Position numbers and translations under genes: made by a program. A model generated the notes under the pieces. That model searched no databases. It had not been told where the DNA came from and was given only the letters and a program-made list of their open reading frames with translations. DNA of 64,000 nucleotides from Nitrospira sp. Its GTDB lineage: Bacteria; Nitrospirota; Nitrospiria; Nitrospirales; Nitrospiraceae. Positions 3,892 through 22,046 of this stretch are shown one piece after another; position 1 is the stretch's first letter; each line of letters opens with the position of its first letter. The DNA is taken from NCBI GenBank assembly GCA_024998595.1, contig JACOEK010000005.1:1-64000 (forward strand), given 5' to 3'.

Positions 3892-5024
3892 GTGACACCG
3901 ATAAACGGCAGAAAGATCTACTTTCAGAGGCAATACGCTTTCTGGCCAATCAATATGAGGCCAATCAGAGCTTTAATGACTTTTTCGATGGGGAGGAGCC
4001 GCTAAATATTCCCAGCCCACGCGACGATGTGAGTCCCTATCAGTACGAACCCAGCAAAGTCCTCTTTTGGGTTGACCGTGAAGCCTACGATGACGAGCGG
4101 GTTACATGGGAAAACGACACGAATCAGGCCAAACATAAAGCGGTGAGCGATCTTATTCGTGCCGGTTGTCTCGTAGCTCCATTTCAGGATCTTCTGGATG
4201 CGGTTGAGCGCGGGCGCGTGGTGCCATTCGTCGGGGCAGGGCTGTCGAAGGCGATCGGAATGCCTCTTTGGTCCGAAGCACTTAAGCAGTTGTTGGCACG
4301 CTTGCCCGGAGCCGATGCATCAGCCATTACCGTATTAATCGATTCCGGTCAGTATCTCGCTGCTGCGCAAGCGCTTGTAGACCATGATGCCGTGCAAACT
4401 ACTAATTTCATTCGTACTACGTACCGCGTTCAGAAAATGAAACTAGACGGTCCGATGCTTTTGTTGCCGCGTTTCGCTAAAGGCTGCATCGTGACGACAA
4501 ATTTCGATGACGCAATCGAACAGACTTATCGGCGTGACAAGGTAGAATTCGCCGCGTATATGCACGGTATCCAGGAGCACAATTTCTTTTCTCGGCTTGT
4601 CCGTGGAGACCGCTGCCTACTCAAACTGCACGGTGATGCCGACAATCCAACTACCCACATTCTCACGCAATCACAATATGCTGATGCTTACGGTAACCCC
4701 TTTAACTTCCATAAACCGCTGCCGAAAGCCTTACGTCAGATCTTCGTCTCACACTCGCTACTTTTTCTTGGATGCAGCCTCGACCAAGATTGGACGCTGG
4801 AGCTTTTCGAGCGGGCAAAGGCGGCGAGGGAGTACGAAATCCCCAACCACTACGCGATCCTCCCAGCCCCGGCACAGGCTCAGGCAAAACAACAAAAGGA
4901 AACACGTCTTCTCACATTGAATATTCAGCCGCTCTGGTATCCGGCGGGGCAGCACGAGTTTGTCGGAAGGTACCTCGAACTATTAACTGATGTGGGCGAA
5001 CGAAGAATTAACTTCAACGGATGA
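3888..5024 (+). CDS. SIR2-like domain protein embedded in the type I restriction operon
   Basis: The protein has 378 residues. A SIR2_2-type Rossmann core begins near residue 107 with PFVGAGLSKAIGMPLW (NAD-binding GAGxS). TTNFDDAIEQ near 204, LKLHGD near 246 and FLGCSLDQDW near 294 complete the set of SIR2 motifs. The first roughly 100 residues match nothing I recognise. SIR2 domains in defence proteins such as ThsA and the DSR proteins degrade NAD+ to abort phage infection. The gene starts inside the hsdS stop and ends inside the hsdR start (ATGA overlaps on both sides), so it is an integral, co-translated member of the operon. NADase activity and abortive infection are inferences. A deacetylase role is less likely because the Cys4 zinc module of true sirtuins is not evident. 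Confidence 0.9.
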   Translation: MSDTDKRQKDLLSEAIRFLANQYEANQSFNDFFDGEEPLNIPSPRDDVSPYQYEPSKVLFWVDREAYDDERVTWENDTNQAKHKAVSDLIRAGCLVAPFQDLLDAVERGRVVPFVGAGLSKAIGMPLWSEALKQLLARLPGADASAITVLIDSGQYLAAAQALVDHDAVQTTNFIRTTYRVQKMKLDGPMLLLPRFAKGCIVTTNFDDAIEQTYRRDKVEFAAYMHGIQEHNFFSRLVRGDRCLLKLHGDADNPTTHILTQSQYADAYGNPFNFHKPLPKALRQIFVSHSLLFLGCSLDQDWTLELFERAKAAREYEIPNHYAILPAPAQAQAKQQKETRLLTLNIQPLWYPAGQHEFVGRYLELLTDVGERRINFNG

Positions 5025-8000: not shown

Positions 8001-8179
8001 AACTTAGAAATAGTACTTCGGTAGATTGGCAAAAACGCGAGAGCGTCCGCGCCAGACTGCGAAACCTGGTGCGCATCACGTTGCGACGATACAAGTATCC
8101 ACCTGATATGCAGGAGTTGGCTATTGAGCTCGTTCTCAAACAGGCCGAGCGGTTATCTGAGGAGTGGAGTACAAATTAA
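5021..8179 (+). CDS. hsdR: Type I restriction-modification system, endonuclease/translocase subunit HsdR
   Basis: This is the ATP-dependent motor and nuclease of the type I complex. The 1,052-residue protein begins with a PD-(D/E)XK nuclease (RRPDLVCFINGLPIAVIELKN region, residues about 145-165: D then E-x-K). The superfamily 2 helicase follows, with Walker A HTQGSGKS near 316, the DEAH box ADEAHRSQYG near 426, motif III GFTGTPV near 465 and motif VI AIARVNR near 686. A long C-terminal helical region should dock to HsdM. Length is typical. The start overlaps the SIR2 stop by 4 nt. No inactivating change is visible, so the system is probably functional. Confidence 0.97.
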   Translation: MRICVLGEDELERLALTWFQDTGWEYRHGPDIAPDGDAPERGDYREVLLRGRLLEALRRLNPTIPNSLLDDLVHRVAKLDQPSLILNNRIFHESLVDGVLVEVEQDGEKRGDRVRLIDFEHPERNRFLVVNQFTVQGIKQPRRPDLVCFINGLPIAVIELKNLAAEQEDIWSAYNQLATYKAEIADLFIFNEALVISDGLHARVGSLTANRERFLPWRTIRTEKDRPLLEFELEKVVRGFFAPDLLLDYLRYFILFEQGDDGVAKKIAGYHQFHAVREAVRVTVIAAMQPKSHAVVEERATYGTTVQPGSRKGGIVWHTQGSGKSISMVCFTGKLTQQPEMQNPTVVVVTDRNDLDGQLFQTFMGARSLLREMPQQAEDREKLRALLNGRPAGGIIFTTVQKFTPEKDEVQFPCLSNRTNIVVIADEAHRSQYGFRAVLDKKTGRYKYGFAKHLRDALPNATFVGFTGTPVERDDKDTRAVFGDYVSIYDIQDAVDDGATVPIFYESRLAKLDINQGQIEQLNDDVEEVFEDEEDIAKRQAAMSKWAALEKLVGADPRIQEVAADIVQHFEARTTAIEGKCMIVTMSRDICVRLYDAIVARRPTWHSSDPAQGTIKVIMTGSAADTELLRPHIYNATTKKQLEKRFKNPKDPLKVVIVRDMWLTGFDVPCLHTMYVDKPMRDHNLMQAIARVNRVFRDKEGGLVVDYIGIAAELRRALMNYTESRGKGNPTNDAREKLAVLLKYVEVARGILHGFDYRMYRTEATRILLPAANFVLGLENGKKRWFDTVVGITRAFSLCGTLDDAVPLREEVAFFQAIKAVIAKATTSDKKLTEDRKNAVLKQILNNAVVAEGVEDIFKLAGLQRPDIGVLSDAFLEEVRNLPQRNFAVELLQKLLNDEVKSRARTNVVLEKKFSDRLLAALNRYRSRAIESAQVIEELIAMAREFRDSAKRGDALGLNQSELAFYDALADNESAVRDLGDVTLKKIAHELTDKLRNSTSVDWQKRESVRARLRNLVRITLRRYKYPPDMQELAIELVLKQAERLSEEWSTN

Positions 8180-8302
8180 ATTGCTGTGGGTGTGTTTCAG
8201 CTAAGAGACTCGGTTTTAATAAACTTTTTAAGCATTGCCGTGAAGGTCAAGCACGCACCATAGATGTCTTGTGAATGATCATCGCACTCAACCAACCTAA
8301 CG

Positions 8303-9655
8303 ATGCCTCCTTCACGATCAATCAAAGTAACTTTGCCCTATAGCGGCTTTGTGCTGGCCTTCGAGCCTAAAAGAACGCCCAAGATAGTGGAGCGCCTCTC
8401 CGTAGAAGGAGAGGCGGTTGAAGCTTTTTCCGCGATGGATTGGAAATTCGAACCTCGGGAGTTAGCTTTGATTGTATTTGATCGGAATCAAATGAGCATC
8501 GGAGCAGCAGTCTTAATGGAAAGAATGTACGGCAGTGGCGGTACAGCAAAGCTAAAAATGCGGCTAACTAACCCTGTGATCTTCAGTAAACCTGTTGAGG
8601 CTGAATCTGTACATGAAATATTGTCTCTTCAGCGACATGTCAGTACAGCAGAAAATGTGCAGCGCATCACTCCTGACCTTTGGCCCAAGCTTATCACATT
8701 ACTGAAAACATTAAGACCTGACTCGGCAACCGCCTTGAATCAGCTTTTCGCTGAACGCGATAAAGAGCGGCGTCTGTTTGGTGATGGTGACCGACTTTTG
8801 AGGCTAGTCGAGCAACGGGACTGTGTGGGTTTGACCCTTGAGATGGCAGGTTTAGATCGAAAGACGACACTTCGGTCCTTGAACGTTGGTGTGACTGACA
8901 AGGCAAGATCAATTCTTGACCTTCTCGATAACGAGTCTTTACACGAGCAAGACGCTATTCGTCATGATGAACGAGTGTTTGAAGGGTTATTGAATGGCCA
9001 AATGAGACACGGCGTTTTTACCGACGGTAAGGATCGTGCTGTTCGAATACATGTCTACGATAAAAAACCACTCGAATCCGTTCTTGGCATCGATTTGTTG
9101 GTCTTTCAGGAGGCTTATCAGTCCTTTATCTTGCTTCAATACAAAATGATGAAGACTAGCCATGAGAAGAATGGAAAAACGTGGTCCTATCTGGTCGATT
9201 CTCAACTATGGAAGCAAATGGAGCTAATGGATCGCGCTCAAGCCAAAATATACGAAAAGGAAGTGCCGGAAAAGGTAATGTGGGACTGGAGATTGAATGG
9301 ATCTCCGTTCTATTTCAAATTTTGCGAGGCGACCCGTTCGACAGCACGGGCAGATGGCTTGGTAAGAGGCCTCACGATTAGTTTTGAGCATTTAACTCAC
9401 TTTTTATCGTTAGACGAGTCAAGAGGAGAGCAAGGAGGACGGCGGGTTGGTTATACCAATTGTCCTCGGTATTTGAACAATACCCAGTTCGTTGAGTTAG
9501 CACGAGACGGGTGGATTGGCTGCGATCGAAGTGGATACGAGTTTGTAAGAGGCATACTGGAGGCAGGGGAAGCTGGAGGACGTCTTGCCATGTTTGCTGT
9601 AGTCGAAGCCCCTCGTGCATCGAACGCAATTGAGCGTGGTTGGCGACGTAAATAA
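8303..9655 (+). CDS. Hypothetical defence-island protein, possible Mrr-like nuclease
   Basis: I do not recognise this 450-residue protein as a named family. Near residues 265-290 it contains GIDLLVFQEAY followed by ILLQYK: an Asp in a GxDLL strand, then Q-x-K 15 residues later. That spacing resembles the D...QxK variant of the PD-(D/E)XK fold seen in Mrr-type enzymes, so a nuclease role is plausible but unproven. Residues 100-220 look helical. There is no signal peptide or membrane segment. The gene sits 123 bp after hsdR and 48 bp before a GmrSD-like gene on the same strand, so the pair may be a unit. Base composition matches the neighbouring defence genes. Confidence 0.6.
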   Translation: MPPSRSIKVTLPYSGFVLAFEPKRTPKIVERLSVEGEAVEAFSAMDWKFEPRELALIVFDRNQMSIGAAVLMERMYGSGGTAKLKMRLTNPVIFSKPVEAESVHEILSLQRHVSTAENVQRITPDLWPKLITLLKTLRPDSATALNQLFAERDKERRLFGDGDRLLRLVEQRDCVGLTLEMAGLDRKTTLRSLNVGVTDKARSILDLLDNESLHEQDAIRHDERVFEGLLNGQMRHGVFTDGKDRAVRIHVYDKKPLESVLGIDLLVFQEAYQSFILLQYKMMKTSHEKNGKTWSYLVDSQLWKQMELMDRAQAKIYEKEVPEKVMWDWRLNGSPFYFKFCEATRSTARADGLVRGLTISFEHLTHFLSLDESRGEQGGRRVGYTNCPRYLNNTQFVELARDGWIGCDRSGYEFVRGILEAGEAGGRLAMFAVVEAPRASNAIERGWRRK

Positions 9656-9703
9656 GGTTTTTAGGCCACCACAGGATATTCAGAGAAAGGATATAGAAAG
9701 TCC

Positions 9704-11887
9704 GTGGAAACTCAAGTCCGCACGCCACAGATGGTGTTTATGCAACCTCAGCGGCTCGTAGTTCCCCTCTTCCAACGTCCCTACGTATGGAACGAGGAGA
9801 ATCAGTGGGAGCCATTGTGGAATGATGTCGTTCGGGTGGCGGACAGGGTTCTTAAGAAACCCTATGAGAAGCACCACCCCCATTTTCTCGGTGCCGTTGT
9901 GCTGCAGCAGGTTCAAAAACAGACCGGCCAGATGCAAGAGCGAACCATAATCGATGGTCAACAGCGGCTTACGACTCTGCAGTTGTTGTTGGACGCATTG
10001 CATGCCGAGCTTCTATCGGTCGAAGCGGTGTCCGCAGCTTTGAGAATCGAACCACTAGTCATGAACGCCGAACCTTTCTGCTCCAGGCCGGAGGATCGTT
10101 TCAAAGTTTGGCCGACGAACCGTGACCGGCCGGCATTCAACGCGGTTATGGGTGCCAAGCCTCCCGTTGACTACGCAGTGGTCGGCTACCGTGGTGAGCG
10201 CATGGTCGAGGCGCATCGCTATTTCAGTGAGCAGGCGCGCGAGTGGCTCGTTCTTGGTGAGGAGGCCGTTGGAGCGCGCGCGGCAGCAATCGAGACGACT
10301 GTGCGGGAGCTTCTGCAGGTAGTGGTTATTGACCTGACTCTCGATGAGAACGCTCAGGAGATTTTTGAAACGCTGAACGCACGTGGTGCGCAACTTACCG
10401 CAGCGGACCTGATCAAGAACTTGATTTTTCAAAGGCTGTTGGAAACAGACACAAACGTGGAGAATGCTTACCAAAGTAATTGGAAGGAATTCGAGACCGG
10501 TTTTTGGGAAGCTGAGGTAAGTGTTGGACGGCTTAGGGCTCCTCGCTCCTCGATTTTTTTCAATCACTGGCTGATTGCGCGGACCGGCGAAGAAGTTGTT
10601 GCGAGGGAGGTGTTTGCTCGATTCAAGAGGTTCGCGGATCACGATTCCGGACTGCCCATGCCCAAACTGCTCACGCAAATTCATGACGCGTCACGTGTTT
10701 ATCGTCAGTTCGTCACTAGCGCATCAACCCAGACCGGACCGGTCGATCGTATCGGTTTATTCGGTTATCGGACTGGTGTACTGGAGAGTGAAGTCATCAA
10801 ACCACTCGTGCTCTGCTTACTTGATCCCGAAGAGGCGACCATTCCTGATGCCCAATTTGTCAAAGCTCTGGATGTCGTGGAGAGCTGGATGATCCGCAGA
10901 ATGCTCGTACGTGCCACCACCAAGGCATATAACCAGTTGGTGGCCGAACTCATTTCGGAGCTTCGGAGAGGAAAACGGGAGAATGCAGGGGATGTTATTG
11001 AGTCATTCTTAGCCGGACAAACAAGTGGTAGTCGGTACTGGCCAGACGACGCGGAGATAAAGGGAGAACTTAGTGTATTGCTTGCCTATCGTCGCCTAGG
11101 TCGAGGGCGACTTCGCATGGTTCTCGAAGCTATAGAAGATGATTTGCGCGGCTGGAGAGGTGGAAAGCCGGGCCTTGGTGATGAGCGTGCAGCTAGGGGA
11201 AGATATGCCATCGAGCATGTCATGCCCAGAAAATGGGTTGCTCATTGGCCGTTACAGAAGGAGGGGCAAGACGAAGCAGAGCGTGACCGTGTGATTCACA
11301 CTTTCGGGAATCTGACGCTCCTGACCGGCAAACTGAATTCCAAAGTCTCAAACGGACCTTGGCAGGGAAGTGGAGGGAAGCGAGAAGGCCTTGAGGCTCA
11401 CGATGTTCTGTTATTGAATCGGGAGCTGTTGAAGAGGGCACGTAACGAATGGACTGATGAGGCAATTCAGGCACGTACGGAAGAACTGACTAATATCATA
11501 ATCCAGATATGGCCCGTCCCTCCGAATCACCGATCGGCATTTTCTCCTGAGAAACCACGAAAGCGTAAAAAGGTGCAACTTTCCGATCTCATCAACGGCG
11601 GCGCCCTAACACCAGGAATGCTCCTTTTTCCAAGGAGGAAGAAGTTCAGCGATAAGGTCGCCACGCTGCTTCCGGACGGTAAGGTAGAGGTCGATGGTGT
11701 GTCCTTTGTAAGTCCCTCCCCGGCCGCCAGCAAGATTGCTGGTCATGCAACGAATGGCTGGTGGTTCTTCTTAACAGACCAATCGTCACGGCGCTCGCTT
11801 CGGAACGTCCGGCGCGACTATGTCGAGGCCATGGCAGTGGATGCGGAGGATGATGAACCTGGCGACGATGACGATGATGAGGGATAG
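9704..11887 (+). CDS. GmrSD-type DUF262/DUF1524 protein with C-terminal RAMA-like domain
   Basis: The N-terminal half is DUF262 (ParB/GmrS-like NTPase): PLFQRPYVW near residue 20, the signature DGQQRLTTLQ near 85 and FETLNARG near 222. The second half contains the DUF1524 HNH-type nuclease with IEHVMPRKW near 505 and FGNLTLLTGKLNSKVSN near 535. The C-terminus (about 630-710, LSDLINGGALTPGMLL, then DGVSFVSPSPAASKIAG and NGWWFF) resembles a RAMA domain, predicted to read modified bases. An acidic tail ends the protein. GmrSD family enzymes are type IV restriction systems that cut glucosylated hydroxymethylcytosine phage DNA. The start is GTG at 9704. The target modification is unknown. Confidence 0.88.
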   Translation: METQVRTPQMVFMQPQRLVVPLFQRPYVWNEENQWEPLWNDVVRVADRVLKKPYEKHHPHFLGAVVLQQVQKQTGQMQERTIIDGQQRLTTLQLLLDALHAELLSVEAVSAALRIEPLVMNAEPFCSRPEDRFKVWPTNRDRPAFNAVMGAKPPVDYAVVGYRGERMVEAHRYFSEQAREWLVLGEEAVGARAAAIETTVRELLQVVVIDLTLDENAQEIFETLNARGAQLTAADLIKNLIFQRLLETDTNVENAYQSNWKEFETGFWEAEVSVGRLRAPRSSIFFNHWLIARTGEEVVAREVFARFKRFADHDSGLPMPKLLTQIHDASRVYRQFVTSASTQTGPVDRIGLFGYRTGVLESEVIKPLVLCLLDPEEATIPDAQFVKALDVVESWMIRRMLVRATTKAYNQLVAELISELRRGKRENAGDVIESFLAGQTSGSRYWPDDAEIKGELSVLLAYRRLGRGRLRMVLEAIEDDLRGWRGGKPGLGDERAARGRYAIEHVMPRKWVAHWPLQKEGQDEAERDRVIHTFGNLTLLTGKLNSKVSNGPWQGSGGKREGLEAHDVLLLNRELLKRARNEWTDEAIQARTEELTNIIIQIWPVPPNHRSAFSPEKPRKRKKVQLSDLINGGALTPGMLLFPRRKKFSDKVATLLPDGKVEVDGVSFVSPSPAASKIAGHATNGWWFFLTDQSSRRSLRNVRRDYVEAMAVDAEDDEPGDDDDDEG

Positions 11888-12044
11888 GCGAATTGCCCAA
11901 GCGAAGCAAGCTCCTGCGCGATGAAATCAAACGTCCTCCAAGCGAAAACTCAGTCTGCGGCGTCCTCAGATAGCCTTCAATGATGCCCGGACGTTGATGG
12001 TTGAAACCGACACTAGACGGCAACTTATAATTCACAGGTGACCA

Positions 12045-12992
12045 TTGAGCGGAATAAGTGTACTGATTGATGCGGCTATCGAATTTGAGCGCACTCACCA
12101 AATCGTTCTATTCACCCTTTTGGAAAAGTCCAACTTCGCTATACACCTCCTTGGATTTCCAAAGAATGCGGGCGTTGAATGGGAACCTGAAAGTCAGCTA
12201 TTTGACCTAAGGGTTAAAGGCGAAAGCCAACAGTGCCTATTGGAGATAAAGACGTGGTCTACTTTGAGCGAGAATCAAAGGGCCCGCCAAACGCAATACC
12301 TTCGGAGCACCAATAGCAAAGCTGTCTATGTTCTTCTCGCAACTTCATGGTTTGAACATACGCATCGTCAAGTGGAAGCGTTTTATCCATGTGCAACCAA
12401 GAAAGTTGGTTATGAAGAATTAATCGAAGCGCTACAAAAATTAATTGCAGATCACGATCTGGAATCTGACCTAGCCGAATTGGCATTAGCTTATAGAATG
12501 GCTTTGAAGAGTCAGTTTCTCCGAATCAAAGCGCAGTCCTTTTCCTCAAATTCTGGTTCCCGGCTCCTTCATTATTCATGTTACCACGTGATCCAGGAGA
12601 AGCTTAGTGACATTCATACAGCGATTTACACTGTGAATCATCCTGGCGGGGAGGTGTATATTCTCAACAACGAGGGTTGGCAGTATCCATTCATCCACGA
12701 CACGCGAGTAGAACTTTTCTACGAATTAGTTAATGGCAGGCTATGTATCAAATTTTTCGCAGACACTCCATCAGAAACTAAATTTTCGATCCGTAACATC
12801 ATACGGAAAGCAGTGCGATCAATTCTTATTGTTGACCAGCCAATTATCGATTCTGGCCGGTTGGGAGCTTACATGACTGCTTGTCAGATTGAGTTTGATT
12901 TCCTGGACCTTTCAAAGCTTGAAGAGGCCATATCTTTGTTCAGGAATGTCCACGAACGAATGCCAGAAATAGCGAATGCTTGTGTTGGTTAG
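12045..12992 (+). CDS. Putative PD-(D/E)XK nuclease-like protein
   Basis: This 315-residue protein starts at a TTG (12045) with AGGTG six bases upstream. Its N-terminal half has the PD-(D/E)XK pattern: ESQLFDLRVKG supplies the Asp, CLLEIKTW supplies E-x-K 13 residues later, and ENQRARQTQYL provides the usual downstream Gln helix. The strand before (FAIHLLGFPKNAGVEWEPES) fits the fold's first helix and strand. The C-terminal half (about 170-315) is unfamiliar and may bind a ligand or a partner. It lies at the end of the defence cluster, 157 bp after the GmrSD-like gene, with a small Cys-containing gene behind it. A nuclease is inferred from motif spacing only. Confidence 0.6.
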   Translation: MSGISVLIDAAIEFERTHQIVLFTLLEKSNFAIHLLGFPKNAGVEWEPESQLFDLRVKGESQQCLLEIKTWSTLSENQRARQTQYLRSTNSKAVYVLLATSWFEHTHRQVEAFYPCATKKVGYEELIEALQKLIADHDLESDLAELALAYRMALKSQFLRIKAQSFSSNSGSRLLHYSCYHVIQEKLSDIHTAIYTVNHPGGEVYILNNEGWQYPFIHDTRVELFYELVNGRLCIKFFADTPSETKFSIRNIIRKAVRSILIVDQPIIDSGRLGAYMTACQIEFDFLDLSKLEEAISLFRNVHERMPEIANACVG

Positions 12993-13015
12993 CTTCTAGA
13001 AATAGAGGTGAATTG

Positions 13016-13198
13016 ATGGGGTACTCAGAGAACTACTGCCAGGGTTGCAGAGAAAGGCATGACGCTAGCTTATGGTATCGCCGAGAGATTGAAAGAGATA
13101 TGACTCACGAACAGGAATGGCTCTGCGGTAATAAGCACGCAGAGCTTACAGACCAAGAACGGGAGCTCAAAGGTTGGGAGCTATCTGAACCGCTGTAG
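13016..13198 (+). CDS. Small cysteine-containing hypothetical protein
   Basis: A 60-residue protein starts at ATG 13016 with the site AGAGGTG at 13004-13010. It contains CQGC near residue 8 and a further Cys near residue 40 (WLCGN), a possible small metal-binding motif, and is otherwise charged and helical (Glu/Arg-rich). It follows the PD-(D/E)XK-like gene by 23 bp and is probably its operon partner. No family is recognised. Good start signals support a real gene. Confidence 0.5.
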   Translation: MGYSENYCQGCRERHDASLWYRREIERDMTHEQEWLCGNKHAELTDQERELKGWELSEPL

Positions 13199-13919
13199 GA
13201 CCGTAACCGCACTGTGCCATCACCGGTGTCTCAGGAAAAGGCTGAACCCCATTCTTTCCCAAATAGGCAGAGAGCATGCTCCTTAGGAAATACTGTATCG
13301 ACCATGTTGCCCACACTGAGTAACGCAAGTGTCCTATATAGGACAGCCTATTTGTAAGCTATTGTAAAACCGTGTATGAGATTGGAATGTTTTAGCATGT
13401 AAGCCATTGAGTTTACTTATCACCCGGGGCCCTTTTAAGGCGAAAAGTCCTCTAGTTCAAATACCAGCGGATGTAGTGCTCCTCTGAAATCGAGCACCTG
13501 AGTTGATTTTTGAGCCCGGTAATGAACTGGGCTTCGATACCGTAGCGCGTGTGGGCGGTTCTGGTTGTACCAGTCGACCCAATCTCGAATGATCCGACGC
13601 GCCTCCCACCATTCAAGCCTCATTCCAATCTCGTTTTACGTTGCCGTCCTCTTTGGGGGCGAAGTCACTTTGTATTGCCTCTGATACTGCTCCGGGCATG
13701 AAGGCCAGGCGTCACTTGCGACTATAGTAGAGATACTAGGGCGAGTTGGTCTCTCAATAATTTTCCCTGAAAATGGTTACATTGTGTTGCTGATAGGGCC
13801 ATCTGGCCGTATTGCTACTGCGTAGTATTTCGTCTACAAAAGCGCCATGGTTTCTTCTTCATTCGAGGATGGTGATAAGTAAATGCCTTGCAGCACAGGA
13901 TAGCTCTAACAGAAGCACT
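13199..13919. other. Intergenic scar between two island cargo blocks
   Basis: Apart from the IS3 remnant at 13435-13623, I see no gene in this stretch. Composition shifts here: the sequence before it resembles the moderately GC-rich defence genes, and the sequence after it is clearly AT-richer. It therefore looks like a junction between cargo of different origin. Confidence 0.45.
13435..13623 (-). pseudogene. IS3-family transposase C-terminal remnant
   Basis: The minus-strand reading contains ARRIIRDWVDWYNQNRPH followed by ALRYRSPVHYRAQ. This is the conserved end of the IS3-family OrfB integrase core (rve_3): the W-x-x-W-Y-N-x-x-R-P-H segment after the catalytic Glu. Only about 60 residues remain. 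A stop codon lies just upstream in this frame, and the expected preceding residues (RDWNEA) appear in another frame. The DDE core, OrfA and clear terminal inverted repeats are missing. It marks an old insertion event between the nuclease cluster and the lipoprotein cassette. Confidence 0.75.
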
Positions 13920-15056
13920 ATGATTAATCGAGATATGAATAATTTACTTAGATGTTTGGCAATAAGTATAAGTGTTTATTCATCATTTGGTTGTACCGTG
14001 ACAGGACAGTCAAGCCGTGAGATGAAGAGCGAAATCCTTAATTCATACCTGGTCAAGTCACTCAACCGATTCTATTCTGATGATGCAGCCATAAATAATT
14101 CCCTAATAAGTACGAATCTCTCCAGCAAACAAATCCGTGAAATAGAGCGAGAGATGAAGACGTTTTACGGGGCAGTTCAAGAGACAGCACTGAAGAAGAG
14201 ATCAATACTCGCACAATTTATGCGGAAAGATCCCCAGCTTCCAACTGCTACCTTAAGTATAGACAAAGAAAATGAACTTCCACGTGTTGAAACTAGTAGA
14301 AGGTTAGAAACAACCTTCAGTCCAAGAGTGCTGCAGGGGCTTTTTCGGGGAGCAATTCTGCAGGGAATAAAAGAAGGTAACCAATTTTTCGACGGTGGCG
14401 ATTCAAGACCTTTCACTTCATATGATCCTAGAGAAACTACTGATGATCAAAAGAAAGGGCTGAAGGCTCTTCTTGACGATGTTAAGAAAGTAAAGGAAAC
14501 GCCCGGCCATTTTCTGATTGTAGACATCTGGCTTGCCTTCTCTGACGAAAGGGAAGATTCGGACTGGTCAAATCTAGTCGACAATAAAATGTCTTCCTTA
14601 CGCCTTGAGGCCAGATATGCAGGCGCATTACTGTTTATTTTAGCTCATGAATATGCCCATATCATTTTGGATCACTTCGCGGAATTGGATGATCTGACGA
14701 CGAAACACCCCCTGGTGGATGGTAGGCCGTCACCAGAGCTCTGTCAAAGCTCAAACCGCTTTGAATATGAGGCAGACCTTATTGGTCTGTTGCTGCTCTC
14801 GCCTTATACCCAAGAAGCTTCATCCCCTCTTTTTGCAGTTCCGATCGCTGACGATTTCGTCGGTTATCGCAATTTTTTTGAATACAGTTATCCTCTTGTT
14901 GGATTTGGGTCCGCTCTTTGCCAGTATCCAAGTAATCGGGAAAGATTTGAGTTTGTTGCCCACCACGACAACGATCTAAAATCTGTGCGCGATGCAGAGT
15001 TTACTGCAAAATTGGAACACGTATGGGCTTCTTTAAAAGGAATCACCAGTGATTAA
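13920..15056 (+). CDS. Metallopeptidase-like lipoprotein (HExxH, M48-type)
   Basis: The protein (378 residues from ATG 13920; ATG 13935 is equally possible) begins with a lipoprotein signal: MNNLLRCLAISISVYSSFGC, lipobox SFGC, predicting an outer or inner membrane anchored periplasmic protein. A zinc peptidase motif HEYAH is near residue 243, preceded by a hydrophobic helix (ALLFILA). FEYEADLIG near 282 supplies the third ligand Glu in an ExxAD context, as in gluzincins. Overall similarity to a named family is not obvious. It is first in an AT-rich co-directional gene set (13.9-19.7 kb), and the next gene overlaps its end. A frame open from TTG 13812 exists, but the lipobox argues for the later start. 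Confidence 0.7.
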   Translation: MINRDMNNLLRCLAISISVYSSFGCTVTGQSSREMKSEILNSYLVKSLNRFYSDDAAINNSLISTNLSSKQIREIEREMKTFYGAVQETALKKRSILAQFMRKDPQLPTATLSIDKENELPRVETSRRLETTFSPRVLQGLFRGAILQGIKEGNQFFDGGDSRPFTSYDPRETTDDQKKGLKALLDDVKKVKETPGHFLIVDIWLAFSDEREDSDWSNLVDNKMSSLRLEARYAGALLFILAHEYAHIILDHFAELDDLTTKHPLVDGRPSPELCQSSNRFEYEADLIGLLLLSPYTQEASSPLFAVPIADDFVGYRNFFEYSYPLVGFGSALCQYPSNRERFEFVAHHDNDLKSVRDAEFTAKLEHVWASLKGITSD

Positions 15057-15363
15057 AGGTCTCTTAATACTGATTATCCTCTCATCTGCCCAAGCGGGTT
15101 GCGCTCCGAACGTTAACAATGTTGACGCGCTGCCTCATTACCTAGGCGATGGATGTAAGCAAGCATATGCAATGTTCCTGGGTAGCGACGAGCCTAGAGC
15201 TTTCGCCATTTCAAGAAATGGGAAGTGTGGGTTTGCATCAGGTCTAATCCATACAGATGCCGGTGTTGGAAGCGAAGCCGTTAAAGTTTGCGAGGCCCTC
15301 AACGGGACAAATTGCTTTATATATGCGTTGAACCATTCGGTAGTTGGAACGAACCATAATTAG
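15049..15363 (+). CDS. Small Cys-containing lipoprotein
   Basis: The gene starts at GTG 15049, overlapping the metallopeptidase gene by 8 bp, and encodes 104 residues. The signal MIKGLLILIILSSAQAGC has a lipobox (AQAGC). The mature part contains FAISRNGKCGFASG and a C-terminal ALNGTNCFIYALNHSVV. That pattern of a short strand plus a Cys pair recalls DUF4189-like or repeat modules of secreted proteins. It is probably co-translated with the upstream peptidase and may be its partner or inhibitor; that is inference from the overlap. Confidence 0.6.
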   Translation: MIKGLLILIILSSAQAGCAPNVNNVDALPHYLGDGCKQAYAMFLGSDEPRAFAISRNGKCGFASGLIHTDAGVGSEAVKVCEALNGTNCFIYALNHSVVGTNHN

Positions 15364-15384
15364 GACCGGACGAAAGGGGTATCT

Positions 15385-16251
15385 ATGTTCATTGGCAAGC
15401 TGGTGGGCCTTTTACTTGCAGTTCTTTTTTTATTCAGTCTTCAAAGCTGTAGCCTAATCGGGACCAGCACCAATCTTAATTCCGATCTTGACAATCTATT
15501 GGCCGAGTACGGATTTACAGCAATACGGCCACCTTCTCTCCTTACTCCTCCGGGAACAGTAGTACATGTCAGACATAGTAGTCCGTACGAGGTGGGAATC
15601 GTTTGTAGTACTATTGGTGCGGTCGGGGAAAGCACCAAGTGGCACGAGAGCGATTCAAACTCTTCGACACTCGCCCAAAAGGCATCCGGCACATTTGACG
15701 TAACGGCGAACTATCTATCTCTCATAAAAGGTGAGGCTAAATATCAAAGTGTAAAAAACATTAAGGCTACTTTACGTAATGTAAAAGTATTGGCGATATA
15801 CGACGAAGATATTGTAGCCGGTCTTAAAAAGCAGAGTGATAATTGCAAAACTGCAATGAAAGCAAAGCTGGATTCAAAAACTCCAATGACGATGGTTGAG
15901 TCAGCTCTGCAAGCAGACGTGGTTTACTCCGTGGATTTCGAAGACAGTGTCTCTCTAACGGGCGAGGAAAAGAACGCCATTCTGCAGGGATTGTCCCTAG
16001 CATTAAGTGCGAAGGCCGATACGACCACCAATTACTCTCTTCTGGGAACAGGATTATATTGGGGACTTGTAGATGACCCATCGAAGATAAACTTTTTCAA
16101 GCCCGCTGAATTAGCCTTAGGAATTTCAGGAACTGTACAAGTAGTGGCAAAAGGGCAAGGCGCAACGATGAGGGCACCAAAGGCTCCACGGCTGATCGGC
16201 CCGACAACACGCATGGGAAAAGAGGCGATTGTTGTATCTGATCAGCAATGA
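15385..16251 (+). CDS. Hypothetical lipoprotein
   Basis: This 288-residue protein begins with a hydrophobic signal (KLVGLLLAVLFLFSLQSC) and a lipobox LQSC, so it should be lipid-anchored. The mature region has a Gly/Ser/Thr-rich first half and a VVHVRHSSPYEVGIVC segment. A repeated-looking central part follows (FDVTANYLSLIKGEAKYQS). No domain is recognised. It follows the small lipoprotein by 21 bp and has a GAAAGGGG site upstream of the ATG, so it is probably in the same transcript. Confidence 0.6.
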   Translation: MFIGKLVGLLLAVLFLFSLQSCSLIGTSTNLNSDLDNLLAEYGFTAIRPPSLLTPPGTVVHVRHSSPYEVGIVCSTIGAVGESTKWHESDSNSSTLAQKASGTFDVTANYLSLIKGEAKYQSVKNIKATLRNVKVLAIYDEDIVAGLKKQSDNCKTAMKAKLDSKTPMTMVESALQADVVYSVDFEDSVSLTGEEKNAILQGLSLALSAKADTTTNYSLLGTGLYWGLVDDPSKINFFKPAELALGISGTVQVVAKGQGATMRAPKAPRLIGPTTRMGKEAIVVSDQQ

Positions 16252-16431
16252 TCGGGGACAGGTAACGTTACTCTGGCGAGAATAAAGACTTCTTTGACCG
16301 TAACAATAGATCTAAAAAAAAGAATTGGCACTGATCCCAGGATGTTCATTTAAACTCAGGTTATATGGAAGAATGTCTTCTTTAGTGGACCATCCTAAAT
16401 AGGCTCACAAGTCAACTTATACGGGAATACT

Positions 16432-16971
16432 ATGAAAAATGAAGTGATAAAATCTGGTTTCGTTTTTCCTCTTATTATTCTCTCCTCTATTTCACTCACA
16501 GCTTGTGCTGAACTACCGAATGCTAGCAAAAACAATTGTGCGGGCATTCAGAAGGCTGTCGTTATTGATACGGAAGCCGAACACATGTGGCTATGTCAAT
16601 CCGGTTCATCTGTTAAGGACTATGCAGTTGCAATAGGGAGCGGCGGACGAGATAAGCAGAAAGAAGGAGACAAGAAGTCGCCACTTGGAAGATATACCCT
16701 CGGAAGTCCACGGCCATCTGGGGAGGGATTTCATACATTTATCCCAATTGATTTTCCGAGGCAAGATCAAAAAGAACAAGGTTTCACGGGGGGCAAGATC
16801 GGAATACATGGCCCTCCCGAGAACTGGAGCTGGTTAGGCGCGACGACGACATGGGTTAATTGGACGAGAGGGTGTATTGCCGTGGGATCTGTTAGGGAAA
16901 TAGTTGAAGTAGCCGATTGGGTTCGAAGTAGTCAGGTCCAAGAAGTCATTCTTCGGCCTGAACATCCATGA
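16432..16971 (+). CDS. L,D-transpeptidase (YkuD) lipoprotein
   Basis: This 179-residue protein has a lipoprotein signal with lipobox LTAC (Cys about residue 25) and a YkuD domain from about residue 40. The catalytic motif is GIHG (His near 126) followed by WTRGCI (Cys near 148), the HxxG...RGC form of the family's SHGC site. KKSPLGRYTLG near 82 is the usual substrate-loop stretch. YkuD enzymes cross-link peptidoglycan or attach proteins to it through a Cys acyl-enzyme. Within this cassette it is a predicted periplasmic wall-modifying enzyme next to an amidase. It is shorter than housekeeping L,D-transpeptidases. Confidence 0.85.
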   Translation: MKNEVIKSGFVFPLIILSSISLTACAELPNASKNNCAGIQKAVVIDTEAEHMWLCQSGSSVKDYAVAIGSGGRDKQKEGDKKSPLGRYTLGSPRPSGEGFHTFIPIDFPRQDQKEQGFTGGKIGIHGPPENWSWLGATTTWVNWTRGCIAVGSVREIVEVADWVRSSQVQEVILRPEHP

Positions 16972-17037
16972 CGATCGGCTGATATTCAGAATGTTGGGGA
17001 CTGAGATGGTCTCAGGCAGAGATAAAGCGAATATAAA

Positions 17038-17874
17038 ATGGAACTTCAAGCATTTGTCGCACGCCTGCGCAAATTAAAGGAGCAGTTATTTATGAGGGGC
17101 CAGAAAAACAGTCAATCCCCAGCCGATTCAGAGGCAAGCCCAACTAAGTATGGCGGAGGGGTGGGGATAGGCCTTGTTTTGATTGTAATGCCCTGCTTTG
17201 CCCTATTCTGGATTTTGGCCCGACCGTCCGATCTGCTCACCGTCACTCTGCCAGTCCTAACAATTTTGGGAATCATGATTTTGTTTGGTTCTTTGGCTCT
17301 TGTCTCAACGCTTTTTAAACGGTTGTCTTTGAGCGATCCCGAACAACCTCTAGCACTGCCAGAAGGCTCGATCAGGGCTGTTATCGCATTGTCACTGATC
17401 GTGCTCTTCGCCATCATATCTATAATGCTCTACCAAACGGACTCAAAGCCTTACGTGCTTCCTGGAGTGAGCGCACTGTCTCTCGCAGAAATGCTAAAAA
17501 ATAAATCAATTAATCCTGTCGCAGTCATTCCTGAACCCTGTGGGAAGCTAGAAAATCCTTCTCAGAAAAATTGCGAGCCAAACGAACAAAAGTTTACCGT
17601 TCATATTCGTCCCGCTCCTGCTCAGGAGTCTATTGATCTCGCAAAACAGTTGTTGATTCTCATTGGAACGCTGATGACATCGGTAACAAGTTTTTATTTT
17701 GCTGCTCGTACCAGCGAGATAACGCGAAAGGCCGAAGCATCAACGATCGCATCAGCCGAGGACAAAACTGACCTTACACAAGATGAAAGCCATATCGATG
17801 GTTGTGGCATCCCTGTTGACAACCCCACTAAAGATGAAGAGTTGCCTCCTGCTAGAGGTGGAGTGAGTGCCTGA
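17038..17874 (+). CDS. Four-helix membrane protein of unknown function
   Basis: Of the 278 residues, hydrophobic segments lie at about 41-62 (GLVLIVMPCFALFWILA), 66-95 (LLTVTLPVLTILGIMILFG), 112-132 (AVIALSLIVLFAIISIML) and 205-225 (LLILIGTLMTSVTSFYFAAR). A periplasmic or cytoplasmic loop of about 70 residues with two Cys (PCGKLENPSQKNC) separates the third and fourth helices. The layout (SIRAVIAL helix, loop, LLILIGTL helix, short charged tail) recurs in poorly described bacterial membrane proteins. Its stop overlaps the start of the amidase gene, suggesting functional coupling, perhaps holin-like or anchoring. That is inference. Confidence 0.6.
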   Translation: MELQAFVARLRKLKEQLFMRGQKNSQSPADSEASPTKYGGGVGIGLVLIVMPCFALFWILARPSDLLTVTLPVLTILGIMILFGSLALVSTLFKRLSLSDPEQPLALPEGSIRAVIALSLIVLFAIISIMLYQTDSKPYVLPGVSALSLAEMLKNKSINPVAVIPEPCGKLENPSQKNCEPNEQKFTVHIRPAPAQESIDLAKQLLILIGTLMTSVTSFYFAARTSEITRKAEASTIASAEDKTDLTQDESHIDGCGIPVDNPTKDEELPPARGGVSA

Positions 17875-18682
17875 TATGACTAACTCATTAACTTGGTTAC
17901 TAGAAGTACTAGCAAATGCGGGACTCAAAGTTGCGGAGGTCGACGGATGGCAGACTCGCGGCCGTAATGACCTCGGAACCATTATGGGTGTTATGTGTCA
18001 CCACACTGGGGCTGTGGCTAAAGGCAATATGCCTGCTCTCCGGAGCCTTGTTGAGGGTCGTACAAACCCGAAGCCAACTCCGGGACCTTTGGCGAACCTA
18101 GGGGTGGGTCGCGATGGTACATACTATCTAATCGCCGCTGGCAGAGCGAACCATGCAGGGGAGGGCACCTGGCGGGGCGTGACGAATGGCAATGCCAGCT
18201 TTATTGGGATTGAGGTTGAAAATACGGGTGCCTCTGATGATTTCCCTTGGCCACCCGTCCAAATTGATGCTGTTTATCGAGGTGCGGCTGCCATACTGAA
18301 GTACCTCGGACGGACTGCAGATTTTTGTATCGGCCATAAAGAGTATGCATTGCCACTGGGCCGGAAAATTGATCCTAACATAAATATGGATGATTTTCGT
18401 CTGCGAGTTTCATCGATACTGGATGGAACAACACCGGCGCCGATCTTAGTTCCAGCAGTCGAACCAGCTACAGCTGCTGGGGGTCGCGGAAGACCAACAT
18501 TGCGACGTGGGATGATGGGACCTCTTGTCGAGTTAGTTCAAAGAAAATCTGGTGTACCTTTGGTCGATGGCATATTTGGGGCGAAGACAGAAGCTGCTAT
18601 GCGAGAGTTTCAACGCGTCCACGAGCTTGTCCCTGACGGTATAGTGGGTCCTAAGACGTGGGTAGCTTTGGACTCGATTTAA
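17867..18682 (+). CDS. N-acetylmuramoyl-L-alanine amidase with peptidoglycan-binding domain
   Basis: Residues about 25-180 form an Amidase_2/PGRP-type domain. Zinc ligands are likely the His in MCHHTG (near 44) and the final His of GHKEYALP (near 157); RKIDP follows. Residues about 205-270 form a PG_binding_1 domain (LRRGMMGPLVELVQRKSG, then DGIFGAKTEAAMREFQ and DGIVGPKTW). The enzyme cleaves the MurNAc-L-Ala bond. There is no signal peptide, as in phage endolysins. The start is GTG 17867 (overlapping the upstream stop) or ATG 17876; an AGAGGTGGAG site lies upstream. The adjoining membrane protein gene could aid export, giving a lysis-like pair, but no other phage gene is present. Confidence 0.85.
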   Translation: MPDMTNSLTWLLEVLANAGLKVAEVDGWQTRGRNDLGTIMGVMCHHTGAVAKGNMPALRSLVEGRTNPKPTPGPLANLGVGRDGTYYLIAAGRANHAGEGTWRGVTNGNASFIGIEVENTGASDDFPWPPVQIDAVYRGAAAILKYLGRTADFCIGHKEYALPLGRKIDPNINMDDFRLRVSSILDGTTPAPILVPAVEPATAAGGRGRPTLRRGMMGPLVELVQRKSGVPLVDGIFGAKTEAAMREFQRVHELVPDGIVGPKTWVALDSI

Positions 18683-18696
18683 GGCAAAGGAAAGAA

Positions 18697-19659
18697 ATGA
18701 TTATCAGGCTAATTTTACTTTTCATAATTGTTCTGTTGTATGGCTGCTCCACACGTCTACCAGCCACTCTCGGTGAGGAGGAGAGTGGGTATGGGTATAT
18801 TCCACTAGACGGACTGGCCGTAAAAGAAATCATGAGTAACTATACCTGCGTACCGTGGGAAAAAAGGATTCATGCCGGACCGAAGACCGACGATCTTGCG
18901 ACTTTTCTTAGCAAGAGCCCATTTGCGCCGTTATTATTGGCACTGCCAGATGTCTCGGTAAGATTCGCTGTGGCCAGCTTTGTAGGAAGCGGAGGCTTAT
19001 CATTCGGACCTGCCAAAGTTACTGCATCCAACCAATCATATAGGGCGATTCTCGATTATGTAAATGTTGATGCAATACCGGTGAGATTTCTTATTACCGC
19101 TTATAAGGAATCTAAGCCAGTTAGACTTAGTTCCGTGAAGAATGGAGAGGCTGATTATTATGAAGCGACACTCATTCCTGCACACAGTGAGGTGAAGTCT
19201 GAATCAAAATCTGCACTAGAAGGTGCGCTTGTAACAATACCCGTCTACGTAGGTATTGGACTCAGACTCACGGCTGACATTAAAGCGCTTGAAGGAGGTA
19301 TTCCATTGACTAGTTTGGGTGCTATAGCGATCGAGGCTGAAGCGAAGAGATTAAGTGGCACGCTGACAGTTCAAAGTATTGGTCTGACTGGTGAGGCTGT
19401 AGCAACAGCTCTTCCTTTACCGAGCAAATTAGACCAAACCACCATTGAGAATGGAATCCTAGCAATCGGGAGCACTCGGGCAGTCATCTACCGATCTTTG
19501 CTAGAGAACGGAGGCATCACAACAACTCCGCGCATTGTTGGGCTTTATAGCCCAATCGGTTCTTCGCCGGTCTTAGTTAACGCTATATATTCGGAGCTTG
19601 CCAGACAGCCGCCAGAATGGGAAAGACCTTGTAGGGCCTTCCCGAAACAGGGCGAGTAA
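18697..19659 (+). CDS. Hypothetical lipoprotein, last gene of the AT-rich cassette
   Basis: I place the start at ATG 18697, preceded by AAAGGAAAG, because it opens a clean lipoprotein signal: MIIRLILLFIIVLLYGC with lipobox LYGC. The 320-residue product has a mature part rich in strands with no recognised domain. It follows the amidase gene by 14 bp and may anchor or regulate it. The sequence is AT-rich like its neighbours. A longer reading from 18658 would lack any start signal and would bury the signal peptide. Confidence 0.6.
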   Translation: MIIRLILLFIIVLLYGCSTRLPATLGEEESGYGYIPLDGLAVKEIMSNYTCVPWEKRIHAGPKTDDLATFLSKSPFAPLLLALPDVSVRFAVASFVGSGGLSFGPAKVTASNQSYRAILDYVNVDAIPVRFLITAYKESKPVRLSSVKNGEADYYEATLIPAHSEVKSESKSALEGALVTIPVYVGIGLRLTADIKALEGGIPLTSLGAIAIEAEAKRLSGTLTVQSIGLTGEAVATALPLPSKLDQTTIENGILAIGSTRAVIYRSLLENGGITTTPRIVGLYSPIGSSPVLVNAIYSELARQPPEWERPCRAFPKQGE

Positions 19660-19722
19660 ACGATTTTTATGGATTTAATTTCTGGCGACGGTAGTGCATC
19701 AATGACCGATAGAACAAATACC

Positions 19723-20049
19723 TCAGTTCAACGCTGAAACGACGACGCTACGTCTCTCCTCGATATGCTTTCGAATCTTGTCCGGTAGTGCCTTCTCGGC
19801 CAGCCGCAATTCATAGGTCTTCTGCAAATTCATCCAGAATTCAGCCGTGGTATTGAAAAACGCTGCAAGACGCACGGCCGTGTCGCCCGTAATGCCCCGC
19901 TGTCCCTTGATGATTGCCGTAATCCGGTTTGGCGGCACCTCCAGTCCCTTGGCGAGTGTATTGGCGTTGATGGGGCAATCGGACCCTTTCATGAACTCTT
20001 CCAGCAAAATTTCTCCCGGATGCACCGGCCGCATGCCGTTCTTTACCAT
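19723..20049 (-). CDS. higA: HigA family antitoxin
   Basis: This 108-residue protein has an XRE/Cro-type helix-turn-helix. Family marks are HPGEILLEEFM near residue 9, ALAKGLEVPPNRITAIIKGQR-like spacing near 30-50 and TAEFWMNLQ near 68. HigA neutralises HigB by direct binding and represses the operon. It lies 12 bp downstream of the toxin gene in the toxin-first order typical of higBA. The nearby perfect palindrome at 20365-20380 is its likely operator. Confidence 0.93.
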   Translation of the reverse strand: MVKNGMRPVHPGEILLEEFMKGSDCPINANTLAKGLEVPPNRITAIIKGQRGITGDTAVRLAAFFNTTAEFWMNLQKTYELRLAEKALPDKIRKHIEERRSVVVSALN

Positions 20050-20061
20050 GGCCTTTCTCCT

Positions 20062-20340
20062 TCAGTGATAGTCTGCAATCTCGACATCGTGGGTGCCATC
20101 AGTTATCCATCTGAAACAGAGGCGCCATTGGTCGTTGATTCTGATGCTGTGCTGCCCCGTACGATTACCTTTCAATTTTTCCAAGCGATTGCCTGGAGGA
20201 GCCAGGAGGTCCTTCAGATCGGTTGCACTGTCTAGCATCACAAGTTTCCCTTCAGCCACATTGCGAATACCGGAGAACTCTCTGACGGATTCTCCGACAA
20301 ACAGGCGCTCAGTCTTGCTATCCCGGAAACTTCTAATCAC
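20062..20340 (-). CDS. higB: HigB family toxin (RelE-like mRNA interferase)
   Basis: This 92-residue protein has the HigB/RelE fold pattern. It opens MIRSFRDSKTERLF, LKDLLAPPGNRLEKLKG lies mid-protein, and the C-terminal strand is IRINDQWRLCFRW with basic and aromatic residues for mRNA binding. HigB toxins cut mRNA on the ribosome. The toxin precedes its antitoxin. The pair sits between the AT-rich cassette and the tRNA scar, a position suited to stabilising an island against loss. Confidence 0.93.
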   Translation of the reverse strand: MIRSFRDSKTERLFVGESVREFSGIRNVAEGKLVMLDSATDLKDLLAPPGNRLEKLKGNRTGQHSIRINDQWRLCFRWITDGTHDVEIADYH

Positions 20341-20380: not shown

Positions 20381-20531
20381 GATGTGCTAAATTTGTACTA
20401 AAAATTTTCAAAAAGGACTCCATTCACTAAAAACCGTGGAATCGTTGGAACCGACCTATCTTCTTGATTCGACGATAAAAACAGGGAAACCTTGGCAAAA
20501 TCAAGCCGCTATAGAAATACTACTTAACGAA

Positions 20532-20576
20532 CTTTTAAGGCGAGGGTCCTGGGTTCGAATCCCAGCCGACTCACCA
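20532..20576 (+). repeat. tRNA-Lys 3' fragment, probable att site at island border
   Basis: The 45 nt read as anticodon loop CTTTTAA (anticodon TTT), anticodon stem 3' strand GGCGA, variable loop GGGTC, T-arm CTGGG-TTCGAAT-CCCAG, acceptor 3' strand CCGACTC, discriminator A and CCA. All segment lengths match a tRNA exactly. The sequence just upstream (ACTTAACGAA) cannot form the 5' strand of the anticodon stem, which should be TCGCC, and there is no D-arm. It is therefore a 3' half only. Such direct copies arise when an integrase recombines in the anticodon loop region of a tRNA gene. Confidence 0.85.
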
Positions 20577-20785
20577 TATAACCTCAAACATCTCCGTATC
20601 CTTTTCAGTATCCGGTCATTTCTTCCTTTGTCTTCAATATGGAAGCCACCGCAATGGTTTATTCGACTTCTCCCTTATGAACCAGGCGACCGTAAACAAT
20701 ATTCAAACAGCCATTCGCACGGTAGGTCAGGCTCACCAGGGTACATCCTAGCTGTCAATGAGTAGTCTGCCTGACATAAGACATC

Positions 20786-21184
20786 ATGATGTGGAGACGA
20801 TCACTGGTCCTAATCGTGATCGCGGCCGGATTCTTCAGCCTCAGCGATAGCGTGTGGCTTGCTAGGGCTCAAACCGGTTCCAACCCATCTCAATCAACTT
20901 CTCCTGCGGCGATTTCTCCGATTCAACCGTCATCTGCCCCCACGAGCGGACTGCCGGCGAATGTATTGACTCCTTCTACCACCTCTCAACTGGCGCCGAG
21001 CTCCGGTGCGCGGTCGAACAACGCTCCAGTTCCTTTCAGCAGCGCGGGACGCGGCTTGCCGGGTATGCAGGGAGGGCCTCCACTGAATGCTCCCATGGGT
21101 GCCCAAGATCCTTCCAGAAGTTACATGCAGCCCCCTACAGTTGGTCCGTTATTTTGTGATCCAGCCCTGAACATTCAATGTTGA
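20786..21184 (+). CDS. Secreted Ser/Pro-rich hypothetical protein
   Basis: This 132-residue protein has a signal peptide (SLVLIVIAAGFFSLSDSVW, cleavage probably after ARA). The mature chain is almost wholly Ser, Pro, Ala and Gly, so it is likely disordered, and it ends with a Cys pair (FCDPALNIQC). There is no domain. It is the first gene on the chromosomal side of the island border. Function is unknown; a short surface or periplasmic linker protein is possible. Confidence 0.5.
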   Translation: MMWRRSLVLIVIAAGFFSLSDSVWLARAQTGSNPSQSTSPAAISPIQPSSAPTSGLPANVLTPSTTSQLAPSSGARSNNAPVPFSSAGRGLPGMQGGPPLNAPMGAQDPSRSYMQPPTVGPLFCDPALNIQC

Positions 21185-21296: not shown

Positions 21297-22046
21297 ATGA
21301 GCCAGTGTGGAATCGGGGCAAGCGAAGAAATGGGACAAAACACCAAATTGAACGAGCAAGCCATGGTCGATACGTCCTGTTTGGTCTGCGGAGGTACCCA
21401 TTGCGAAACGGTCGCTTCCATGGGAGAGATTGAAGAGCAAAACAAGATGCTCCAAATCTTTCACCAACAACGAAGGCGCTAGGACGCACAAGCGGATCTC
21501 AAGGATCGAACCTCTTTCTCGCAAGGCTATGCAACAGAGGTGGTCCGGTGCCTGACGTGCGGGTGTATCTATCGTAATCCGAGGCCGACCCTCCGCGCCG
21601 TCACGACTCAGTACGCGGAGGACGAGTACGGCGCAGAGCACCTCAAGGCTGAGTTTCAGGCGCAGGAGGCCTGGCCAGAAGGGAATATTACAGCATTCGC
21701 ACAACGCTGCGGCTTCTCTACCCCTGCACCCGTGGTGGTCGAAGTGGGAAGCTTTGTCGGTGGGTTTCTTGCTGATGCACAAAGGAAAGGGTGGGCGATT
21801 GTAGGGCTCGATCCGAGGAAAGAGGTCGTGAATTTTTGTCATGCCCAAGGGCTGCCTGTCATTCACGGCACGCTGAACGAGACCTCCCTTGCTTCTCAAT
21901 CAGCTGATGCCGTCGTCATTTGGAATACCTTAAACCATACATTCTCTGCTCTGTTGCCTGCGTGTCTTCTCCATTTCGGTCGCTGCCCTCTTGGATCTCT
22001 CGAACTAGGGATGATACGAGCTCTCCCCTCTGGATCCTTTTGGTAG
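21297..22046 (+). pseudogene. SAM-dependent methyltransferase pseudogene (internal stop, 3' truncation)
   Basis: The reading frame contains CLVCGG then CLTCGCIYRNPRP (the Cys4 zinc module of this methyltransferase group). A class I methyltransferase core VVVEVGSFVGGFL follows, with GLDPRKEVVNF and DAVVIWNTLNH. A single in-frame TAG at 21480-21482 interrupts it, and the frame reads on uninterrupted after it. The homology ends abruptly after NTLNH, so the C-terminal third is gone. It is decayed and probably inactive unless the TAG is read through. Confidence 0.75.

Follow-up and report, generated by a model that had tools for sequence, protein, structure and literature searches.

Genomic islands in tRNA genes are textbook knowledge, and to our knowledge most of these islands have no visible means of moving between cells. 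Nitrospira are nitrite-oxidising bacteria and important nitrifiers in wastewater treatment, and our search of the literature for Nitrospira inoviruses or tRNA-Lys islands found nothing on the subject. Islander-class tRNA islands have a regenerated tRNA and a displaced 3' fragment at their ends, a tyrosine integrase and an empty site (PMC4383910), and all of these recur at the locus described here. The integration step is no different from that of the Islander class, but the payload here has an inovirus virion module. Pseudomonas Pf prophages are also alike in having a filamentous module, their own tyrosine integrase, an excisionase and a tRNA target matched to the integrase, with genomes of 7.3-13 kb (PMC7549136), and filamentous and tailless Vibrio prophages are smaller than 16 kb (PMC11630473). 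Unlike Pf, the delimited elements described here span 13-35 kb, of which ~6 to 28 kb is cargo beyond the Rep-HTH end; they carry RadC in addition, and their proteins are related only remotely.

Two further groups are close in gene content. The Pseudomonas islands I23, I44 and I55 share with our elements an integrase, an HTH excisionase, RadC, an inovirus Gp2-like Rep, an HTH protein and defence cargo, as well as near-identical copies in divergent hosts, and they are described as having no genes of their own for transfer (Zhao et al., 2025; PMC12595487). They differ in that a conserved filamentous-phage module for structure and assembly is present here, and in that their target is tmRNA with intY/alpA, whereas the target here is tRNA-Lys and the excisionase-like protein matches HTH_17. 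The inoviruses surveyed by Roux et al. (2019; PMC6813254) are similar in the pI/Zot ATPase, small coat protein, rolling-circle Rep, integrases and, in some, toxin-antitoxin genes. On the other hand, HigBA lies here at the far end of a long cargo, and the main text of that survey makes no mention of Nitrospira.

The window, by which we mean the whole stretch of 64,000 nt analysed, is contig C8 of the Nitrospira genome G000 from its first base, and its left edge is the contig end. Positions 20532-20576 are very probably the attR core, that is, the right end of an integrative element of ~27.7 kb that is inserted in tRNA-Lys(TTT) downstream of purA and consists of an inovirus core and cargo. Its Zot is 28-33% identical to phages in the collection searched (best matches listed), and Zot and Rep are 24-33% identical to phage proteins of the collection among the matches listed. 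We do not class the element as an ordinary inovirus, because a length estimated at 27.7 kb here, and of 29.2 kb in G004 and G005, is too large; this size also counts against our main reading. Unusual here is that integrative elements of 13-35 kb form a family in which a phage virion module under purifying selection is combined with an exchangeable cargo. The conserved core of the island is a filamentous-phage module kept intact by selection, and a sister copy has recently moved between species as a unit, which makes the spread of defence islands testable in Nitrospira. It also suggests that the cargo of filamentous phages may go far beyond what the known isolates carry.

The attR core, its tRNA-Lys partner and the empty site

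The initial annotation, made from the window alone, had described the 45 nt at 20532-20576 as a tRNA running from the anticodon loop to CCA, with correct segment lengths and without the 5' half, and had attributed this to integration into a tRNA gene. An exact copy was found: the 45 nt (+) are nt 32-76 of an intact tRNA-Lys(TTT) gene on contig C9 (G000:C9:6710-6785, -; 45/45 nt, 100% identity), from the first anticodon-loop base through CCA. BLAST of window 20500-20600 against the whole of G000 hit just two places, the second with E 6.7e-17. ARAGORN reported no tRNA and Rfam no RNA family in the window, and from both blanks we conclude that the 5' half of the tRNA is missing at 20532-20576. 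Other 12-mers of tRNA-Lys(TTT) occur within the window only at 13429, inside a decayed older att site. Because the window begins at a contig end, the search for the left side was moved to other contigs. The tyrosine integrase adjoining the tRNA-Lys on C9 (410 aa, C9:5453-6685, Phage_integrase E 2.7e-36) converges on it, and the gene ends 24 bp from the 3' end of the tRNA. Thus, the intact tRNA-Lys with the same 45 nt and the adjacent integrase, both predicted to the left of the window, do exist, but on C9, a contig that we join to the window by inference.

The core is adjoined by a conserved attP left arm (atcaagccgctatagaaatactacttaacgaa, 20500-20531, +), and the same arm stands before 3'-half copies in G001, G011, G012 and G014. 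The C9 bases directly after the CCA of the intact tRNA-Lys are caataaatcaatcactt. A probable integrase arm-type site of 20 nt, TGTGCTAAATTTGTACTAAA (20383-20402, +), is exact to the pattern TGTGCTAAATTTGTRCTAAA and lies 149 nt before the core, and its partner on C9 lies 59 nt after CCA; 0 matches to the pattern are expected by chance in the window and in the C9 locus. TGTGCTAAATTTGTRCTAAA forms a tandem repeat. At the integrase end its units lie 59/70 nt after CCA, and at the far end they precede the core by 149/138 or 150/139 nt. The spacing is the same in most other elements with a 45-nt core, and the pattern is missing from the other integrase class. These repeats are probably integrase arm sites, to which the integrase would bind. 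The attR of G014 retains one of the two units, and a 4.6-kb element in G001 lacks them at the far end.

The integrases of the first class, to which this one belongs, are 83-98% identical and are found at tRNA-Lys in several Nitrospira species, and the element-side sequence flanking the core is common to the first-class elements at both ends. The second class (~29% identical) uses the same tRNA-Lys with a 48-nt core and different arms. The 4.6-kb element of G001 (FP929003, N. defluvii, 3548466-3553207) has the same integrase class and attR arm as the element here, without the inovirus module. G003 has a second-class integrase at the tRNA followed by two 3' halves, of which the nearer bears a first-class-like arm and the farther a second-class arm.

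An empty site was found in another Nitrospira genome, G027. On its contig C30, purA and an intact tRNA-Lys are followed contiguously, 217 bp on, by a homologue of the window gene at 20786-21184 (+, 132 aa), which is the first chromosomal gene beyond the island and serves as marker of the empty site. Past this gene, G027 carries methyltransferase, hemerythrin and CBS genes, the same as those right of the island in the window. The comparison with a related genome lacking the island, proposed at the outset, is thereby available. Of the cargo at 939-20340, relatives share only HigBA, the YkuD gene and short fragments, and conservation of the 0-20 kb region in relatives, named at the outset as the result that would speak against an island, was not what we found. 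The integration into the tRNA gene is borne out by the exact pair, the adjacent integrase and this empty site.

Some details of the flank vary. The methyltransferase gene at 21540-22046 of the window is much shorter than its G027 homologue (168 vs 370 aa), and the window lacks two genes that precede the hemerythrin gene in G027. In the complete genome G016, tRNA-Lys and purA lie ~1.34 Mb from the island's right flank, and a 3' half and an integrase stand at this second place; the hotspot is rearranged in this genome.

The inovirus module and the probable join between contigs

Near its left end, C9 carries purA, tRNA-Lys, the integrase and an HTH_17 gene. RadC follows on the opposite strand, and after it come a coat-like protein of 82 aa, Zot/pI, an Ace-like protein, a protein of 422 aa at the place of pIII, one of 87 aa and Rep, which the contig end truncates. 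The assembly ATPase of pI/Zot type (Pfam Zot E 1.5e-29; phrog_197 E 5.4e-48), the rolling-circle replication initiator (Rep_trans E 1.1e-36) and RadC (E 2e-39) are recognised by family matches. The 82-aa protein (C9:4092-4340) has no phrog match; by eye it looks like a coat protein, with a signal peptide and one membrane helix, and it is conserved at 94-100% in most copies. Of the larger proteins of the window and of C9 that were scanned, none was a relaxase or a type IV secretion protein.

The gene at the left edge of the window (2-160, -; Pfam HTH_17 E 1.4e-6) is an HTH_17 gene of this module, located upstream of Rep and cut by the contig end. It had been taken for an excisionase-like gene in agreement with an integrase to the left of the window. 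The HTH_17 match stands, but the homologues lie just upstream of Rep and not beside the integrase; in 11 copies, their distance to the matching point in Rep is 377-392 bp. We rejected it as the excisionase of the integrase on this ground, and also because a different HTH_17 gene adjoins the integrase.

Contig C6 ends, at the same point as C9, in another copy of the phage module that is 92% identical, and contigs C8 and C11 both start within an HTH gene of one kind. Most simply, the assembly broke in the Rep-HTH stretch common to both copies. Given the break-point distance of 377-392 bp in the 11 homologous copies, the gap between C9 and C8 is probably ~0.39 kb, and the element is probably ~27.7 kb long. 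We infer the C9-C8 join from the matching att sites, arms and gene order; the two element ends are on separate contigs in G000, and they lie in one continuous sequence in G004, G005 and G011. Exact end overlaps between G000 contigs were not found. Contig C12 (3.2 kb) was tried as the piece between C9 and C8 and rejected, with no inovirus genes recognised and no sequence common with C9. Joins of C9 to C11 and of C6 to C8 are unlikely, because C11 has a 39-nt repeat of tRNA-Arg(CCT) from C6 and not of tRNA-Lys. C6 and C11 together appear to hold a second element of ~13.1 kb at tRNA-Arg(CCT) with the 39-nt repeat.

This tRNA-Arg(CCT) (G000:C6:1080388-1080464; C11:5940-5981) appears to be a target on both sides: one element carries a repeat of its 3' part, and the inovirus element a repeat of 39 nt from its 5' end. 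Since the latter repeat is taken from the 5' end, the integrase of the inovirus element seems to use the 5' half of the tRNA. Another contig of G000, C10 (25.2 kb), has inverted repeats of ~609 bp near its ends, which are 97.5% identical.

Cargo and the fossil attR

From the integrase end, the order of the element is integrase, inovirus module, type I restriction-modification genes with SIR2 and GmrSD, fossil attR, envelope block, HigBA and attR. The defence part consists of HsdM (939-2567, +; Pfam N6_Mtase E 2.1e-110), HsdS (2551-3891, +; Pfam Methylase_S E 6.5e-18), HsdR (5021-8179, +; PADLOC REase_I 1136 bits), a SIR2-like protein between hsdS and hsdR (3888-5024, +; Pfam SIR2_2 E 2.4e-29; PADLOC ThsA E 1.6e-22) and a GmrSD-type (type IV) restriction enzyme with RAMA (9704-11887, +; Pfam GmrSD_N E 1.9e-34, GmrSD_C E 5.1e-25, RAMA E 3.8e-13). 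The envelope-related block (13812-19659, +) includes, by Pfam, a YkuD L,D-transpeptidase (16432-16971, +) and an amidase with a peptidoglycan-binding domain (17867-18682, +). Its remaining genes encode lipoprotein-like proteins or membrane segments without family match, and NCBIfam gave no match for the genes at 13812, 15385, 17038 and 18658. The block is followed by the HigA antitoxin (19723-20049, -; NCBIfam antidote_HigA E 1.7e-26) and a HigB-type toxin (20062-20340, -; Pfam HigB-like_toxin E 2.1e-15), conserved beside attR in G004, G005 and G011.

The cargo differs among related elements. In G004 it comprises a helicase with PLD domain, an MmeI/Eco57I-type methylase and an AIPR protein, then two Tle1-like phospholipases, and in G011 ResIII with an N6_N4 methylase and a YhcG nuclease, a HerA-type ATPase, an SNF2 helicase, then NAGPA, YkuD and a phosphoesterase. 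The recurring order is phage core, defence block, envelope block, HigBA and attR. Envelope-related genes (L,D-transpeptidase, amidase, Tle1-like phospholipases, lipoproteins) lie between the fossil attR and HigBA in three different elements.

The fossil attR (13330-13475, +) is of the second integrase class, with the palindrome TGTCCTATATAGGACA, TGTAAGNCATTG repeats and a decayed tRNA-Lys 3' half. Over 93 nt it matches functional attR arms of G018, G021 and G023 at 84-89% identity, and over 91 nt that of G003 at 86%. An IS transposase fragment with an rve domain lies beside it (13435-13623, -; Pfam rve_3 E 2.2e-6, rve_2 E 1.7e-5). A fossil attR is present at the corresponding place in G004, G005 and G011. 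Elements near tRNA-Ala(CGC) genes in other species contain it internally, as does an element near tRNA-Glu. The second attR at 13.33-13.47 kb indicates that the island is layered and was not made in one step, and its presence inside elements indicates that the element probably grew when an older unit joined a further block at its right, the composite now moving together. The initial annotation's term genomic island holds, but the island is more than an anonymous one, as it is built on an inovirus and holds an older att site.

Transfer of the element and competing readings

The elements of G004 and G005 are 29,244 bp long from tRNA to attR and differ by 3 mismatches (99.99% identity), two of which are within the attR core. 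The shared unit contains the inovirus module and ~20 kb of cargo. The left flanks are 79% identical, the right flanks do not align, and identity ends 1 nt after CCA. The near-identity of 29,244 bp in two species between diverged flanks indicates that phage module and cargo travel as one unit. If the two differences in the core stem from the old host gene, strand exchange took place before core position 28.

In the proposed mechanism, recombination by the tyrosine integrase between attP and the tRNA gene would take place within the anticodon loop or directly behind it. The displaced old 3' half would end up at the far end of the element; because the element brings a new 3' half, the tRNA would stay intact on the integrase side. 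The inovirus core comprises the integrase, the HTH_17 excisionase-like protein, RadC, coat, pIII-like protein, Zot/pI, rolling-circle Rep and HTH, and is followed by a variable restriction and SIR2 block, the envelope block with HigBA, and attR. Excision may be carried out by Int plus Xis, the element may replicate by rolling circle, HigBA may act as a retention module, and spread may occur by filamentous virions or a helper phage. The att pair, the integrase, the empty site, the arm-site repeats and the transfer of the sister element as one unit are shown directly.

A chance match or an unrelated tRNA pseudogene is a reading of the 45 nt to which we give a negligible probability, and we rejected it in view of the exact match over 45 nt, the att arms conserved across species and the empty site in G027. 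A small inovirus (~8 kb) could instead sit at tRNA-Lys side by side with one or more older independent islands, the inner att having been lost, so that the 45 nt would be the attR of the old island only. Tandem 3' halves at the hotspot in several species and the fossil attR within the window point in this direction. However, the 29,244-bp unit in two species spans both inovirus and cargo, the attL and attR arms belong to one integrase class, and none of the copies examined shows an inner att of at least 14-16 nt in the stretch from HTH to where the cargo begins. We therefore consider side-by-side islands improbable; such accretion accounts for the history of the element and not for its present unit.

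Within our main reading of one integrative element ending at 20532-20576, the transfer step can be explained in two ways. Median omega was 0.04-0.10 for coat, Zot, pIII-like, 87-aa, Rep and RadC genes and 0.24 for the Ace-like gene (18-23 copies, which include the G000 joins and related loci and are not fully independent, and with stops in two Zot copies), and these low values argue that the phage genes are in use. It is possible, though we hold it tentatively, that the whole element of 28-35 kb, with ~20 kb of defence and envelope genes, is an unusually large temperate filamentous phage that replicates by rolling circle and is extruded from the cell in the form of a very long filament. If so, a non-lytic phage would be a self-transmitting defence island in nitrite-oxidising bacteria. 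A rival for this step only, also somewhat doubtful to us, is that the inovirus genes are kept for replication or interference and the element moves in particles of a helper tailed phage. This route is reported for Pseudomonas islands that have an integrase, AlpA, RadC and an inovirus Gp2-like Rep, and the features shared with them speak for it (integrase, HTH excisionase, RadC, Rep, HTH, defence cargo and near-identical copies in distant hosts; PMC12595487). A pure hitchhiker would not need the coat, pIII-like, Ace-like and Zot genes, which are nevertheless present with omega of 0.05-0.24. Neither an excised circle nor an attP junction was seen; in searches of viral contigs in IMG/VR, a 33-nt stretch across the attR left arm and core was absent, and Rep and Zot gave no match either.

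The same order of tRNA-Lys, int, xis, RadC, inovirus genes, Rep, HTH, cargo, HigA, HigB and 3' half is found in G004, G005 and G011. Across the genus, the phage core occurs near several tRNA genes with different integrases. For about half of the phage-core copies no att pair was found, partly because contigs end, and the att pairs found delimit elements of 13.1 to 35.1 kb. An integrase 96% identical to that of Nitrospira also occurs in a record under the title Mesorhizobium (MAG contig JAHBYX010000018), which may be a misbinned contig.
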